Shown piece after piece: positions 57,729 to 64,000 of a stretch of DNA of 64,000 nucleotides (position 1 is the first letter of the stretch; each line of letters opens with the position of its first letter). The notes beneath the pieces are model-generated. The model worked only from the letters and a program-made list of their open reading frames with translations, was not told where the DNA came from and did no database searches. Location of the stretch: positions 1-64,000 of the forward strand of contig OW568880.1 of assembly GCA_938743325.2 (NCBI GenBank), in the 5' to 3' direction. This DNA comes from Pycnococcus provasolii (lineage: Eukaryota > Chlorophyta > Pseudoscourfieldiophyceae > Pseudoscourfieldiales > Pycnococcaceae). The translations under genes and the position numbers were made by a program.

Positions 57729-60700
57729 CTACTCGCTCGGTGCCGAGGAAGAAGAATGAGATTTCGCGGCGGCGTGGTTGGGTGCGGCGCCAGATATTCG
57801 TAGCCAAGGGAAGTATCCTCCATTCGGCGGCCCAAACGTCATGAGCATGGGCGAAAACACGAAGATTCCCGTCATGACGGACAAAATCATGCATAGGATA
57901 AGCACACTGCCCACACGTACGAAGAGTTGAATTGTGCAAAGTGTCATCGGAAAGCAGGCAAGGCAAGTCGTGGCAGCCGATGCGACGATCGGCCCGCCCA
58001 GCTCTCGAAGCGACGCGAGACCACGCTCGGACGCCTTGCGCAAAACGTGGCCTTTCTGCACGTAGGCCATTGCAAGGTGCAAGCAAAAGTCGCAGCTGAG
58101 CCCGACGAGGATCGTGATCGTGATCATTTCCATTGCACCAATGCACCAATTCATGCTCCAGAAGAGACCCAAGAGCGAAACGACGATAAACACCAGATTT
58201 GCGAACGTCAACAAAGCCAACGCCAAGTCACGAGTAAATATGAATGCAATCGCAACGGAGCTTGTGATGCTAATGATCAGTCCTGACACCGTCTTGCCCA
58301 CCGCGTCGTCCATGCTTCCATCCTGAGGCGATGGGGGCAAAGGCGGCGGCGGCGGTGGCTGGGGCGGCTGCGGCGGCGGCGGCGGCGGACTTGGCGGCGG
58401 TGGAGGTGGACTTGGCGGCGGTGGTGGCGGCGAGTGAGGCGGCGGCGGAGGTGGCGAAGTCGGTGGACCCGGCGGCGGGCTTTGAGACGGCGGTGGCGGT
58501 GATGGTAACGGGGGAGGGGGCGGAAGGGGCGGAGGAGGGGGAGGACTCGGAGGTTTAGGTGGTGGTGGAGGTGGAACACCTCCAATCAAAATGCCACCAA
58601 CCAGATTGGGATCGCACGGATTCAGCGTCATGGAGGAAGGTGCCCATCGAACGGCGACTTCGTCCGATTCAGCACTCTGCAGCCCATTTTCGACGCTCGT
58701 GGCTGCACCCTCTGGCATCTGCAAGATGAGATCAATGAAATCGTTGTCGTTGGTACATGCGCCGTTCGCAGTGGGATCAAGGCAGACATCGAGCAAGTAC
58801 GACGACGCTGCATCCGTCTCCGTGCTGTTTCCCAGCTGTCGCACCTGCGCAGTTGCCAACGGAGCGACGTCGTCCTCGTTCAGCGCAACAACTCTTAGCG
58901 CTGGGCTCGAGGATAACTGCACCGGCACGATGGCGGAGGAGCTGTTGCCATTGTAGAAGGTTGTGCTAACCGCAAAACACTGCTCGTTGACGACAGGTGA
59001 ATTTGACAAGGATCGAGATTCAGCGGCGGCGGCAGTAGCCTGAGAACTTATTATCGTAAGCTGCACGCTGGGCTGCTCGGGCTTGATTGGCGTGCGAGGT
59101 GTAGGCGGAGGGCGCGGTGGCGGAGGGCTCGGCGGCGGAGGGCTCGGAGGAGGAGGAGGGCTCGGCGAAATGGGAGGTGGTGCGCTTGGCACATTGTCGC
59201 AAGATGCCGATAGCGACTCCGCCGTCACCTCTTCCGTTCCCATGGTCCACCGTGCGGATGACCAATGAGGATATTGAGCAAGCGGGTCGGTAAGCCACAC
59301 CCACCCACTGTCAAGCTGACAGCCGCCCGAGTCGCTGAAAAACTTTGCCGCCGAGTTCACGAGCCAGACACGCGTGCTCTCGGATGTGAAGAGCACCAGG
59401 CTCCCAGGCGCGGGTGAAACGAAGACAGGTCGGCCGTCGCAGGTTACGTCTGGTTGCATGTAGTACGTCGTCTTGACGTGCGCGTTTTGAGACAGGGTGC
59501 CATCAAGCTTGCACTGTGGATACGATGAACCAGGGATGGGAAGAGGCTGGGGTGGGGGAGATGGCGGTGGCCGAGGAGGTGGCGGCGGTGGAGGAGCCGG
59601 CTTCGGCGGAGGACTCGGCGCCTGCGTCGTGGGCACCTGCACTAATGCAGCCAGTTCGCTCTGAACATCCTTAACAGACATTCGGGCGGTTATCTGTGGC
59701 GCCTCGCATTTGCGAAGACTGGTCGCCCGTGCCGCGAACACCACCTCGCGAAATTCCGTGAGCCCATGTCTCGAAAAGGACGACGCGTCGGCAATGTTCA
59801 GCATCTGCAGGTTGATATCGTGAAGTGTAGACCACTTGAATCCACGGCATGTTTGGCAGAACGAGATGCGGCCGTCGACATTGGTTACCGGGAAGAACGT
59901 GCCGAGAGCCTTGCGTGTTATCTCCGTGGGAGCCACAAAGTTGTACCTCTGCCAGAGTGTCAACTCGTAGGTATTTGGTGTGCCCCATCGCACACGCACG
60001 CTGAGAGTCGCATTGACACCTGACCATGCGAGATTTGGATCTGGGGCTGTTCCCTCGGGAAAGTAAACGACATCCGCATACATCTCAGAGCCATCCTGCT
60101 TTCCGTCGCCGTTCGCATCGAGCACGCTACTGCCTGAAAAGAATATGTCCGATGACCAGCTCTCATCGCCCGTGCCGGTGGACACCGGATCCTGGTGGAG
60201 TCGATATCCCAATGCAACTATGTGATTGAGTTCGAAAGCAACTTCAGAAGATGCCGGTGTCAGCGGTACCAAGACCGCAGATGACCAGAAGATACTCGAT
60301 GCATCACCACCGTTCAGGGCAGCATCGCCAGCCTCCCTTGTGAAACCCACGAGAGCAGAACTTTTCACCGCTGTGCTTGGCAGAGCTGCGGTAAGCGTAA
60401 AACTGGCGAACGTAGTAGTGTCTTGGTGATAGAAAGGTGCAACGGAACGGCTCAACCCGCTCTGTGCAAAGGCGAAGGAAATGCATGGATCTGGAGGAGG
60501 CGGCACGGGGGGTGGAGGCGAGGGTGCCGAGACTGAAGATGGCGTCTGAGGGGGAAATGACGGTGGTGGTGACGGTGGTGGTGGCGAGATGAGCAACTCG
60601 AGCACGTCGTCAATGAGGGGTTCAGGTGGTGGTGATGGTGGAGGAGGCGGGACATTGAAAATATCCGATTCAGGCTCACAGATTTTGAAGTCTTCAGCCA

Positions 60701-63700
60701 AAGAGTCGTACCTAAAGGTAGAGTCGTCCAACGTCTTCAGGAATTTCGCGTGCGCCGTAGTGTCGTGAGGAGTGAGATAGTTCATCGACGCCGAAACCGC
60801 TTCAAAATCCCTCGTCTGGTCATAATAATTGAAGTCTGGGAAGAACATTTGCATCCCCGTGTATAAATCCCCTGCTCCAGAATTACGCTCGTAAACTAAC
60901 GCTTCTTTGTAAGACGACTGAGCATACGAGGCAAGTTCGCGCAATCTGCCGCACGAATAGTACGTTTCAAGAGACTGAAGAAAGAGTCCAATGTCGATGA
61001 CTTTCATTTCCTCTTGCATGCGCTCACAACGTACATGCTTGTTCAGGGCGGCATAATATGCCTTAAAAACGAGGTCGAATATGATCATCGAATTTTGATT
61101 CAAGGCGAACGTCATATATTCGAACAGAGCATTCATTGACTTTTCCAAAGCCGGAAATTTGGACGTGTCAAGTACCGCCAAAGTGCTTGGACTGGTGCGA
61201 TGGGACATGAACGAGTCGACAATTGCTTTCGACCATTCCAACGAAGTCTCGGCATTCGGATTCAGCCCTGAATATCTCCATCCATGCGCTAATTCGACGT
61301 CTTCACTCGAAACGATGAAATCGGCATACGGATTCAGGGCAACGTTCACCGCCAGGCTAGACATGTAACAGGCATCGAAGCCAAGCATGTCAAAGCGGAA
61401 TGGTGACTGCGTTCCATCGGCCAACGTGCGCTTGAACCCCGCAGTGCCCTCCTTTAATCCACTCAGAAGTCCAGGAACGCTCATAATGTACTGGCCTCCA
61501 TTACGATCTTCGTCGCCACCAAATCCCGTCCAGCCGCCGCCATGGTCGTTGAAGACGAGCGCATAGAATTCCGATGTGTCCGCAATTTGCGGAATCATTT
61601 TACGAAGAAATGTGGTTAACGTCCCTGGGTCGTCCATGTTCACTTCGTCGAGCTCTTCGAGCAGCTGCCAACGGAATGTGCCACCGGAACCAGGAACGCG
61701 CTTGATTATCACGGCATGGTCGAAGTCGCGCAACACGATTTCGCCAGACGCGTCCACGATGTCCATCGACGCGTCGGAATAACCTCCTGCTTGCGAACTG
61801 CTCTGATGCCGATCAACAAGAGCGATAATCTCCATGCCCGCGCCCGCGTTCAGCATCTCGTCGAGATCGCTCATTTGGTAATGTTCCAAGTTTGTGTCAG
61901 CGTGCATGTAATACAGCATCGTCCATTTTGGATTCGCGCCTGGCATCGGCGTCGGCGTCGGCGTCGGTTCGCCATTGCTGTTCACGACAGGCCCAGGTGG
62001 TGCAAAGCAGTCTCCCCCATCAAAACCACATTCGGCATTATTGCACGCTGGATCGCAATATCCGTCTCCACGGTACTCATCTGGACATCCGGGCGCGCAC
62101 ATGGGAGGTGGAGGGGGTGACACCGGCGTCATCGGTGGTGGCGGCGATACGCAGTCTCCCTTATCATAATTGCACTCTGGCGATGCTGCACAGATGGGGT
62201 TGCAAATGCCATTGCCAACATCACTTAAGGGGCAACCAGGAGCGCACGAAGGTGGTGGCGGTGGACTTGTTCTCGACGGCGGTTTGGGGGGCGGCGGCGG
62301 CGGCGACGGTGGAGGGTTAGGCGATGGCGGCGGCGGCGGCGATGGCATCGACGGCGGCATAGGCGGTGGCGATGGTGCCGACCATGGTGGTGGTGCAGGC
62401 GCGAACTCGTCATCGTAAGAAGAATCGTTTCCCCGAGACGCCAGAAAGCCGATTAAAACTCCTGCTGAAACGAGCCACGCCAGGCATGCCAAAGCGGCAA
62501 CTAGAAGCTGAATCGCGGAACGATCCTTGTCACCGTCAGTGACCTCCTCGGTACCACCATCCTCGTCGCCACCCTGCTTCAGCCGTGGTTTGCGGACCAT
62601 GCGGTAGACTGCATAGGGAGTCGCAACAAAAAATGCGATGGCGACGATGAGAACAAATCCGGTGTATTGAAAGGTGGTGCTGTCCGAGCCCCAGCCTTGC
62701 TTCTGCTCTTCCCACACATCGATGCAGCGTCCTCCACCTTTCCAACCGCTTCCAAGCGAGATACGTTGATAGCCGGGTACCTCAGCGTCAATCATGAGTG
62801 GCAACTTTCCCTCATTAACGCCAATGCTCGTCCAGTAATTTTCCTCCGTCCACAGCGGATTTTTCCCTTGCACGCGTGATTGTGCCATCATGAATTGTTG
62901 CACGTTGTGAGACTTCGGCATGAGCTCGGGTGGATCAGCATTGCTGCAGAGCTGCGAAGTTGCAATCAGACTGAGCACAAAGATCACTCCGGTGCCGATG
63001 AGAAACCTCTTACGGTACATACGAATCTCATCGGTGAGGATCGTCCAGCTCGACCCGAATGCATTTGTAATGCGAAGGTACGTGGCGTACAGCTTTGGCG
63101 AGAACTTGAACAGGGCACTCACGCGAACACCCTTGCTCTTCAGCCTACGAATCGCAAAGCCGTATGCCGCACCCTTCTTGAGAGTGGAGTGGCGCCAGGC
63201 AAGTACACAGGGCATAAACGTCATCACTAAGATGTAGTTGGCAATCACAAGGGCCGCGATGAAGAAGCCCGTGGAGCGCAAAGCGGGTGCTGGAGCTGCG
63301 CAATTGCTTGCAAATGCCGCGGCGGAAGTGAGTGATGTCATGAACATCGCTGATCCAGCGTGCTGGAGGGCAAAGCACAGCGCACTGTCGAAAGCCTCGT
63401 CGGCATTGCCCTGTCCTGTTTCGTCTATGACGACAGAATCCAGATTTTTTCCAGTCTCCACTCGATCGAAGCGCTTCGACGAGCTTTTGTACGACCCAAT
63501 GCCTCCCGAACTTTCCTCCGCCGCAAGTGAGGCGGACCGATTCTCCCTCATCGTGACGATCTGCTTATCCGCGACGATGCGGGCTGTGCGCTCGAACGTC
63601 GCGTACAGCACAAACACGTCGTCAACTCCGATGCCCACGATGACGAATGCGGCAAGGAAGTGAAGGGGGCCTAGCGTGGTGTCACCATATCCGTACGCCA

Positions 63701-64000
63701 GTGCGGCCAGGCCCATGGGAAAGCTGATCACGATTTCCAGAACGGCGGCGGTCGCAACGATATTACTTCCGCAGTAGATTCGGATATAGATGGCAACAAG
63801 GAGCAGGCCAACAATCGAGAGCAGAAGGTCCGTTTTCACGACAGACGTCACTTGTAGGTCGTGCAGCGCCGCATTTCCGAAGACGATGTCGACGCGCTCG
63901 CAGAACTTCGCGTTGTCTGAAAGGTAGCACGCTCCCTTCCGCAGCTCGGCGAGAACGTCGCTGTCGAAATCTTTTTTCTTGGCGGCATACCAGATCCGAG
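57729..64000 (-). CDS. Patched/Dispatched-like protein with LNR and clostripain-like protease insert (partial)
   Basis: The frame is open to the window edge, so the N-terminus is missing; about 2089 residues are visible. The first half-transporter (~62.4-64.0 kb) has an SSD/RND motif (GIGVDDVFVLYATFER) and several helices. Then follow Pro-rich linkers, two Notch/LNR modules (62.15-62.25 and 61.99-62.10 kb; CAPGCP, then C-x-DGGDC), and a peptidase C11-type domain (~60.7-61.95 kb) with catalytic His in NDHGGGW (~61.54 kb) and Cys in GFDACYMSS (~61.37 kb). Further beta-rich and pherophorin-like Pro-rich segments lead to the second half-transporter (57.73-58.33 kb; GLSCDFCLHLAMAY). The protease thus sits where RND proteins have their second large extracellular loop. 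Confidence 0.9.
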   Translation of the reverse strand, partial: RIWYAAKKKDFDSDVLAELRKGACYLSDNAKFCERVDIVFGNAALHDLQVTSVVKTDLLLSIVGLLLVAIYIRIYCGSNIVATAAVLEIVISFPMGLAALAYGYGDTTLGPLHFLAAFVIVGIGVDDVFVLYATFERTARIVADKQIVTMRENRSASLAAEESSGGIGSYKSSSKRFDRVETGKNLDSVVIDETGQGNADEAFDSALCFALQHAGSAMFMTSLTSAAAFASNCAAPAPALRSTGFFIAALVIANYILVMTFMPCVLAWRHSTLKKGAAYGFAIRRLKSKGVRVSALFKFSPKLYATYLRITNAFGSSWTILTDEIRMYRKRFLIGTGVIFVLSLIATSQLCSNADPPELMPKSHNVQQFMMAQSRVQGKNPLWTEENYWTSIGVNEGKLPLMIDAEVPGYQRISLGSGWKGGGRCIDVWEEQKQGWGSDSTTFQYTGFVLIVAIAFFVATPYAVYRMVRKPRLKQGGDEDGGTEEVTDGDKDRSAIQLLVAALACLAWLVSAGVLIGFLASRGNDSSYDDEFAPAPPPWSAPSPPPMPPSMPSPPPPPSPNPPPSPPPPPPKPPSRTSPPPPPSCAPGCPLSDVGNGICNPICAASPECNYDKGDCVSPPPPMTPVSPPPPPMCAPGCPDEYRGDGYCDPACNNAECGFDGGDCFAPPGPVVNSNGEPTPTPTPMPGANPKWTMLYYMHADTNLEHYQMSDLDEMLNAGAGMEIIALVDRHQSSSQAGGYSDASMDIVDASGEIVLRDFDHAVIIKRVPGSGGTFRWQLLEELDEVNMDDPGTLTTFLRKMIPQIADTSEFYALVFNDHGGGWTGFGGDEDRNGGQYIMSVPGLLSGLKEGTAGFKRTLADGTQSPFRFDMLGFDACYMSSLAVNVALNPYADFIVSSEDVELAHGWRYSGLNPNAETSLEWSKAIVDSFMSHRTSPSTLAVLDTSKFPALEKSMNALFEYMTFALNQNSMIIFDLVFKAYYAALNKHVRCERMQEEMKVIDIGLFLQSLETYYSCGRLRELASYAQSSYKEALVYERNSGAGDLYTGMQMFFPDFNYYDQTRDFEAVSASMNYLTPHDTTAHAKFLKTLDDSTFRYDSLAEDFKICEPESDIFNVPPPPPSPPPEPLIDDVLELLISPPPPSPPPSFPPQTPSSVSAPSPPPPVPPPPDPCISFAFAQSGLSRSVAPFYHQDTTTFASFTLTAALPSTAVKSSALVGFTREAGDAALNGGDASSIFWSSAVLVPLTPASSEVAFELNHIVALGYRLHQDPVSTGTGDESWSSDIFFSGSSVLDANGDGKQDGSEMYADVVYFPEGTAPDPNLAWSGVNATLSVRVRWGTPNTYELTLWQRYNFVAPTEITRKALGTFFPVTNVDGRISFCQTCRGFKWSTLHDINLQMLNIADASSFSRHGLTEFREVVFAARATSLRKCEAPQITARMSVKDVQSELAALVQVPTTQAPSPPPKPAPPPPPPPRPPPSPPPQPLPIPGSSYPQCKLDGTLSQNAHVKTTYYMQPDVTCDGRPVFVSPAPGSLVLFTSESTRVWLVNSAAKFFSDSGGCQLDSGWVWLTDPLAQYPHWSSARWTMGTEEVTAESLSASCDNVPSAPPPISPSPPPPPSPPPPSPPPPRPPPTPRTPIKPEQPSVQLTIISSQATAAAAESRSLSNSPVVNEQCFAVSTTFYNGNSSSAIVPVQLSSSPALRVVALNEDDVAPLATAQVRQLGNSTETDAASSYLLDVCLDPTANGACTNDNDFIDLILQMPEGAATSVENGLQSAESDEVAVRWAPSSMTLNPCDPNLVGGILIGGVPPPPPPKPPSPPPPPPLPPPPPLPSPPPPSQSPPPGPPTSPPPPPPHSPPPPPPSPPPPPPSPPPPPPQPPQPPPPPPLPPSPQDGSMDDAVGKTVSGLIISITSSVAIAFIFTRDLALALLTFANLVFIVVSLLGLFWSMNWCIGAMEMITITILVGLSCDFCLHLAMAYVQKGHVLRKASERGLASLRELGGPIVASAATTCLACFPMTLCTIQLFVRVGSVLILCMILSVMTGIFVFSPMLMTFGPPNGGYFPWLRISGAAPNHAAAKSHSSSSAPSE

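Follow-up and report, generated by a model that had tools for sequence, protein, structure and literature searches.

Does the 64,000-nucleotide stretch of Pycnococcus provasolii DNA analysed here (the window) encode a single protein in which a protease is built into a transporter, and what might such a protein do? An earlier note on this DNA had described one continuous frame with SSD/RND membrane halves at both ends and, between them, two LNR modules and a clostripain-like domain with intact His and Cys, joined by Pro-rich linkers; all of these elements have held up. The part of the gene within the window (57729..64000, minus strand, to which all coordinates below refer) codes for residues 392-2480 and the stop codon and was delimited as a single open frame, by its codon signal and by simulation. 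The frame is open from 57729 to 63998 and extends upstream to C20:65270, with the first Met at C20:65171, giving 2,480 amino acids with no stop inside. The N-terminal 391 residues fall beyond the window and had been missed previously. In 500 sequences simulated from this stretch with a first-order Markov model, the longest stop-free run averaged 214 codons and reached 447 at most. In every one of 40 segments, codon usage favours the frame over the two other forward frames; some reverse frame scores above it in eight of the 40, seven of which are N-terminal or Pro-rich, and the remaining one, starting at residue 1261, lies within the C11 protease domain.

That the gene is known here from DNA alone could speak for an assembly join or for two or more genes read as one, and so could the relative P0009, which stops short of TM8 and whose tail is unaligned past the post-protease module A. 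Against this stand the uninterrupted 2,480-codon frame with its coding signal and the finding that the best paralogue of both membrane halves is identical; furthermore, TM8-12 by itself would be an orphan half. An assembly join is unlikely because P0009, encoded on a different public contig, keeps the order from TM5 to module A (60% and 41% identity) and thus repeats the first join. Module B and TM8 lie beyond the end of P0009, and the full order and the second join have been seen once. Taken together, an assembly artefact or fused genes would be most improbable, and the architecture from TM5 to module A looks like a real, conserved design, as judged from the two sequences.

Further members were sought with three queries of a protein collection, none of which returned our own protein. 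The LNR-C11 query covered residues 970-1500 and, restricted to long proteins, scored the 8,000 best-sharing candidates; of its four matches, none combines LNR with C11 or RND with C11 in its Pfam list. The membrane query (residues 180-920; 7,997 candidates scored) found three Dispatched-like proteins, with C11 listed in none of the three. The C11 query (proteins of 441-1402 amino acids; 6,180 candidates) yielded 15 matches, one of which, P0009, has both LNR and C11 listed and a membrane part recognised by direct comparison; the other 14 were assessed by Pfam lists alone. No Dispatched- or Patched-type transporter with a built-in protease was found in the literature searched, and within that literature the assertion that no described family has this domain order stands.

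The membrane part is of the Dispatched type. TM2-6, the sterol-sensing/RND core (residues 447-661; 63189..63833), score 65-144 bits with leave-one-out family profiles and match the solved Dispatched structure 6tbu over residues 591-657; TM7 (residues 723-741; 62949..63005) was placed by hydropathy and alignment to P0009, and TM8-12 (residues 2294-2449; 57825..58292) score 120-134 bits. Solved Dispatched (6tbu, E 3.9e-16) matches both halves, with TM5-6 and TM8-12 resembling solved structures and TM2-6 and TM8-12 the profiles of relatives, so that two homologous TM sets with an SSD are present. The full-gene domain search proposed in the earlier note places C11 and LNR above the Pfam cut-off, and Patched (E 3.9e-4) and Sterol-sensing (E 5e-4) weakly below it; in the genome scan, Patched exceeds the cut-off (25.2 versus 23 bits). 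Acidic motifs in TM4 and TM10 serve as relays in RND transporters, and both are kept here, as GIGVDD in TM4 (residues 513-518; 63618-63635) and GLSCDF in TM10 (residues 2357-2362; 58086-58103). By sequence, the product of the frame has an RND membrane core derived from Dispatched, with a protease-bearing TM7-TM8 loop. Two further elements had been missed previously. The first is an extra two-helix hydrophobic hairpin with a basic turn (residues 837-907; 62451..62663; by hydropathy), whose first and second helices are 70% and 25% identical to P0009 and of which no second copy was found in this genome. The second is a SAM-like N-terminus, for which the Pfam scores are below cut-off (SAM_1 16.3 versus 23 bits; SAM_2 14.4 versus 20.5 bits) and, upon rescoring of SAM_2, marginal (20.3 bits, or 20.7 with neighbours, versus 20.5).

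The outer loops set this protein apart from its relatives. Outer loop 2 starts with a conserved segment (residues 742-836; 62664..62948), delimited by the P0009 alignment and the leave-one-out porter test, of which residues 746-835 share 62% identity with P0009, and then carries an insert of about 1,540 residues. The second porter domain, on which the earlier note is silent, was not detected in this loop by a test that finds seven of eight relatives, albeit with few sequences and with one relative (P0008) missed; the porter strand motif is also absent, and a Pro-rich linker precedes TM8. The first porter domain, in outer loop 1, was likewise not detected (best score -0.9 bits, whereas six of eight left-out relatives reach at least 14 bits), and the undetected domains may therefore possibly reflect high divergence rather than loss. 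Lacking a recognisable second porter domain, the protein is classed as Dispatched-derived and not as a Dispatched, from which it also differs by the protease insert, the hairpin and the marginal SAM-like N-terminus; its sequence suggests a scaffold that is perhaps no normal exporter. The insertion point itself is shared, since five of eight relatives, namely P0006, P0007 and P0008, which probably stem from protists, and the paralogues C34 and C10, carry inserts at the matching position after TM7. These inserts are Cys-rich, EGF-like, FN3 or Pro/Thr-rich; no C11 match is listed for any of the five. All five retain the porter strand, and four are recovered with the porter profile. A comparison of the C10 and C34 payloads gave nothing convincing, the only profile match being a weak one where the porter domain begins; for a 390-residue stretch of C10, Pfam gave no match and the PDB none better than E 0.5.

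With neither porter domain recognised, the core could have lost transport and merely hold the protease at the surface, which would also suit the fact that, in the rows compared, the frame whose C11 domain is closest apart from P0009 lacks an RND match. A plain anchor, however, would be expected to drift in TM4 and TM10, so the intact acidic motifs tell against this reading, as do core scores similar to those of the relatives; we regard it as unlikely.

The payload contains a complete Peptidase C11 (clostripain) domain (residues 1083-1484; 60720..61925; Pfam E 3.7e-31) with the catalytic residues His1210 (61542-61544; motif NDHGGGW, residues 1208-1214) and Cys1268 (61368-61370; motif GFDACYMSS, residues 1264-1272) and with Asp1266 at the S1 position; the roles of this dyad and of the S1 Asp in C11 enzymes are described in PMC4850288. 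The domain has the C11 fold; in the fold search, the C11 entries are followed by legumains, caspases, GPI transamidase, a CHAT protein and Raptor, which are read as a general likeness of the caspase-type fold. C11 enzymes are reported to favour a basic P1 residue, and PmC11 to process itself (PMC4850288). The loop after the His, which is the self-cleavage region of clostripain and PmC11, contains Arg1223; the same column of P0009 lacks a basic residue, and PNT1, with Ala at its self-processing position, reportedly dispenses with this step (PMC4850289). C11 proteins of Chlorophyta (Volvox, Chlamydomonas, Monoraphidium) are known here by their occurrence (PMC4850289); the member described here sits inside a polytopic membrane protein.

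Ahead of the protease lie LNR1 (residues 976-1007; 62151..62246) and LNR2 (residues 1025-1055; 62007..62099; 46.1 bits), each assigned to Pfam PF00066 and possessing six Cys; Pfam finds LNR in two stretches of the protein (E 1e-13). The earlier note took them for a Ca2+-dependent gate, or lid, on the protease and the whole for a release device for lipid-linked cargo. In each of the two known sequences the protease does follow two six-Cys LNRs, in P0009 after some further residues. The Notch negative regulatory region consists of three LNRs followed by a heterodimerisation domain. Here, the LNR module is shared, but the LNRs number two, the Pfam scan of the protein lists no heterodimerisation domain, the modules are not positioned beside a single TM helix, and Pro-rich or low-complexity linkers flank them on both sides. 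Moreover, LNRs are common in this genome (20 matches, counted as 12 reading frames, with six LNRs in one trypsin-type frame). The AlphaFold2 model neither shows nor excludes a gate over the protease because it leaves the LNRs unplaced (block-mean pLDDT 34-52). The Notch-like gate is thus unsupported, and, of the release device, the single frame, the Dispatched-type core and the intact C11 domain stand, whereas failure to detect the second porter domain weakens the idea of release; the protease may trim cargo, its own chain or a neighbour, as the earlier note supposed, but the lid reading as a whole appears highly doubtful. PAPP-A, a metalloprotease and hence another kind of protease, is not known to be built into an RND core. 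It likewise combines LNRs and a protease in one chain (PMC9489782), and its LNRs are reported to act in substrate docking, a reading that fits better here than the Notch gate.

The remainder of the insert comprises a first Pro-rich linker (residues 913-974; 62250..62435), modules A (residues 1561-1850; 59622..60491), B (residues 1882-2000; 59172..59528) and C (residues 2032-2193; 58593..59078) and a long Pro-rich linker into TM8 (residues 2200-2285; 58317..58574), the linkers being defined by sequence. Module A, which adjoins C11 in P0009 too, has no Pfam match and no usable AlphaFold2 model; it shows a weak likeness to part of C44, a C11 frame (7.1 bits; the next row scores 0.8, and the highest of 50 shuffles 0.6). 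Module B recurs in this genome (nine matches including itself, three other LNR frames among them), and module C has weakly similar stretches in other long frames (11 matches including itself, the others at E 0.003-0.07); neither has a Pfam family above cut-off.

We tentatively propose, as a possibility that falls a little short of an even chance, a surface-tethered C11 protease on a Dispatched-derived core, with the LNRs as docking modules. An even total of 14 helices (12 in the core plus the hairpin) and the basic turn of the hairpin suggest that the payload faces either the cell exterior or the lumen of the secretory pathway. The enzyme is a predicted surface-tethered protease cleaving after Arg or Lys, and, by analogy with PAPP-A, the LNRs would be Ca2+-folded docking modules that select substrates rather than a Notch-style lid. 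The membrane core might mainly direct the protease to a specific lipid domain or complex, which the SAM-like N-terminus possibly serves, and its conformational changes may couple to substrate access. The substrates may, as a guess, be surface or wall proteins in its vicinity and sister transporters, at their dibasic sites.

Alternatively, the C11 domain might act on its own chain, cleaving outer loop 1 at the dibasic site GRRHLMQ (residues 253-259), and thereby switch on transport of a lipid-linked ligand. The basic P1 preference and the self-processing of PmC11 are in line with this, as is the reported requirement of furin cleavage of ECD1 for Disp1 function (PMC8630017), and a Hedgehog-type Hint domain in the genome is a possible source of such a ligand. 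RRxL[M/L]Q occurs 21-36 residues ahead of the first strand of loop 1 (judged by eye) in this protein, C34 and C10, and RRxL[LMAVI] is enriched (13 observed versus 3.2 ± 1.9 expected), although the RRxL motif was picked after examples had been seen. However, C34 and C10 bear the same kind of site without a C11 domain, so another enzyme is presumably able to cut it, and the second porter domain is undetected here; we consider self-activation rather unlikely.

A bolder form of the surface-tethered protease is quite unlikely as it stands: a proton-coupled Dispatched core would have become a membrane protease machine, a protease ectodomain having replaced its second porter domain, with core movements presenting membrane-anchored substrates to the C11 domain or gating it, and loop 2 would be a socket for payloads, enzymes included, in algae and protists.

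Human Dispatched1 is reported to rely on the external protease furin (PMC8630017). Here, a protease lies within the same chain, in an alga that also bears a Hedgehog-type Hint domain, which offers a testable case for how lipid-ligand release and proteolysis became linked. Loop 2 as a recurrent insertion socket would provide a route to other payloads; if this is true, algae and protists would exchange extracellular payloads there, enzymes included.

The protein at the start of contig C20 is encoded on the minus strand by a frame of 2,480 residues without a stop, counted from the first methionine at C20:65171. The frame continues for 1.2 kb beyond the window edge and stays open, and the sequence upstream overlaps the window exactly and contains no N. 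When codon usage was scored in 40 windows, with other frames of the same genome (46 contigs, 32.3 Mb, C20 opening with the window) as the training set, it beat both remaining forward frames every time; a reverse frame outscored it in eight of the 40, one of which lies within the C11 peptidase domain. The single continuous frame proposed in the earlier note is borne out. Five matches to the small Rubisco subunit, located on large contigs of this genome, are consistent with a green alga, nuclear rbcS being a marker of the green line. A Pfam search of the full protein placed the C11 peptidase (E 3.7e-31) and two stretches of LNRs (E 1e-13) above the cut-off, as that note had expected, whereas Patched and Sterol-sensing matches were weak and fell under it; in the genome-wide scan, however, the Patched match at this locus was above threshold (25.2 bits versus 23). 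A SAM match was marginal.

The membrane part is of the Dispatched type. Among solved structures, Dispatched (6tbu, E 3.9e-16) was the best match by sequence search, via the TM5-6 region and TM8-12. Hydropathy revealed TM1, the TM2-7 region, TM8-12 and an additional pair at residues 837-855 and 889-907; TM5, too weakly hydrophobic to appear in the plot, was assigned by homology. Profiles for both halves were built from eight Dispatched-like relatives, each omitted in turn: the C20 protein scored 65-144 bits with TM2-6 (omitted relatives 72-160) and 120-134 bits with TM8-12 (107-135). These relative-level scores, together with intact acidic motifs in TM4 and TM10, uphold the claim of RND membrane halves at both ends. 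The top paralogue of both halves is encoded on contig C34; C10 is second for the C-terminal half, and C28 and C10 follow, nearly tied, for the N-terminal half.

A second source of the arrangement is P0009 (1,298 amino acids), which comes from a 5,399-base ENA contig and aligns to residues 598-1743 of the C20 protein with its parts in identical order. Segment alignments gave identities of 65% for TM5-7, 70% and 25% for hairpin helices one and two, 59% for LNR1, 67% for LNR2, 55% for C11 and 47% for module A (1561-1850). Unlike the C20 protein, P0009 has additional Cys-rich sequence separating LNR2 from C11, and the alignment is lost in its tail beyond module A. Since P0009 has the same order, an assembly join is no longer a serious objection for the first junction; the second, from the payload to TM8, is backed only by the frame and the shared ancestry of the halves. 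Two further C11 proteins, P0010 and P0011, have about 660 residues; the former ends in a Cys-rich tail of eukaryotic appearance, as judged by eye.

The payload lies between TM7 and TM8. With the post-TM7 motif, porter strand and TM8 placed by eye, 21-27 residues separate the motif from the strand opening the second porter domain in the insert-free proteins of C28, C27 and C3, and 162-1,111 residues in P0008, P0006, P0007, C34 and C10, whose inserts are Cys-rich, EGF-like, FN3 or Pro/Thr-rich; five of eight overestimates the insert frequency because P0006-P0008 came from a search restricted to long proteins. The very long inserts of C10 (FN3) and C34 (Pro/Thr-rich) were compared, and nothing convincing linked them. 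From strand to TM8, all eight relatives have 171-230 residues. The C20 protein has 1,536 residues at this place, a Pro-rich linker leads into TM8, and no porter strand was seen by eye. Nor was a second porter domain detected by the profile that finds seven of the eight omitted relatives (19.3-64.2 bits; P0008 was missed). We take these results to mean that the domain has been replaced. An extremely divergent porter domain is conceivable, because loop 1 of the C20 protein likewise escapes profile recognition. The number of helices and the basic turn of the hairpin suggest that the payload would face outside.

LNRs look like a stock extracellular module in this genome, with 20 matches in 12 frames by our count. 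LNRs are paired with a protease a second time in L036 (C14:657072-658070, minus strand), a frame for a trypsin-type serine protease that also carries LDLa and six LNRs. Module B (1882-2000) recurs in three other LNR frames. One of the three, of 2,206 residues (C1:1418565-1421783, minus strand), also shows a marginal SAM match in phase with the rest and so has three modules in common with the C20 protein; a further LNR frame of 628 residues has a clear SAM match. By analogy, PAPP-A, whose LNRs bear on substrate choice for cleavage (PMC9489782), may be the nearest working model. Another Patched-type frame (L013, C17:86992) carries nearly identical tandem Cys-rich repeats ahead of its sterol-sensing part.

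Judged by its family, the C11 domain would cut after Arg/Lys. Three sister transporters share a dibasic RRxL[M/L]Q motif in outer loop 1: the C20 protein (L042, residues 253-259, encoded upstream of the window), L017 on C34 and L041 on C10. Since furin cleavage in loop 1 activates human Disp1 (PMC8630017), it is tempting to regard this site as a candidate substrate, which is guesswork; L017 and L041, however, carry it without a C11 match. Among 35 non-overlapping ORFs drawn from 67 loci, RRxL[LMAVI] occurred 13 times versus 3.2 ± 1.9 in 300 block shuffles (maximum 10), the pattern having been chosen after examples were seen; it is possibly a maturation site. The same genome may also encode a lipid-linked ligand: L066 (C39:202313-202786, minus strand) is a Hint domain of the Hedgehog type (PF01079, E 7e-12) that lies close to the C-terminal end of a 1,860-residue frame and has, by eye, a CFPG-like start. 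A second, short Hint match of this type lies at C28:225295.

In mainly non-subscription literature on protease, protist and clostripain contexts, nothing similar to a Dispatched/Patched protein with a built-in protease was found among the papers listed, which for one query were ten of 194, none with clostripain; the three papers mentioning clostripain together with patched concern other subjects by title and abstract. With its anatomy, its partial conservation in a second source and its intact catalytic and acidic membrane motifs, the C20 protein appears to be real, combining known parts in a new order that is conserved at least in part.
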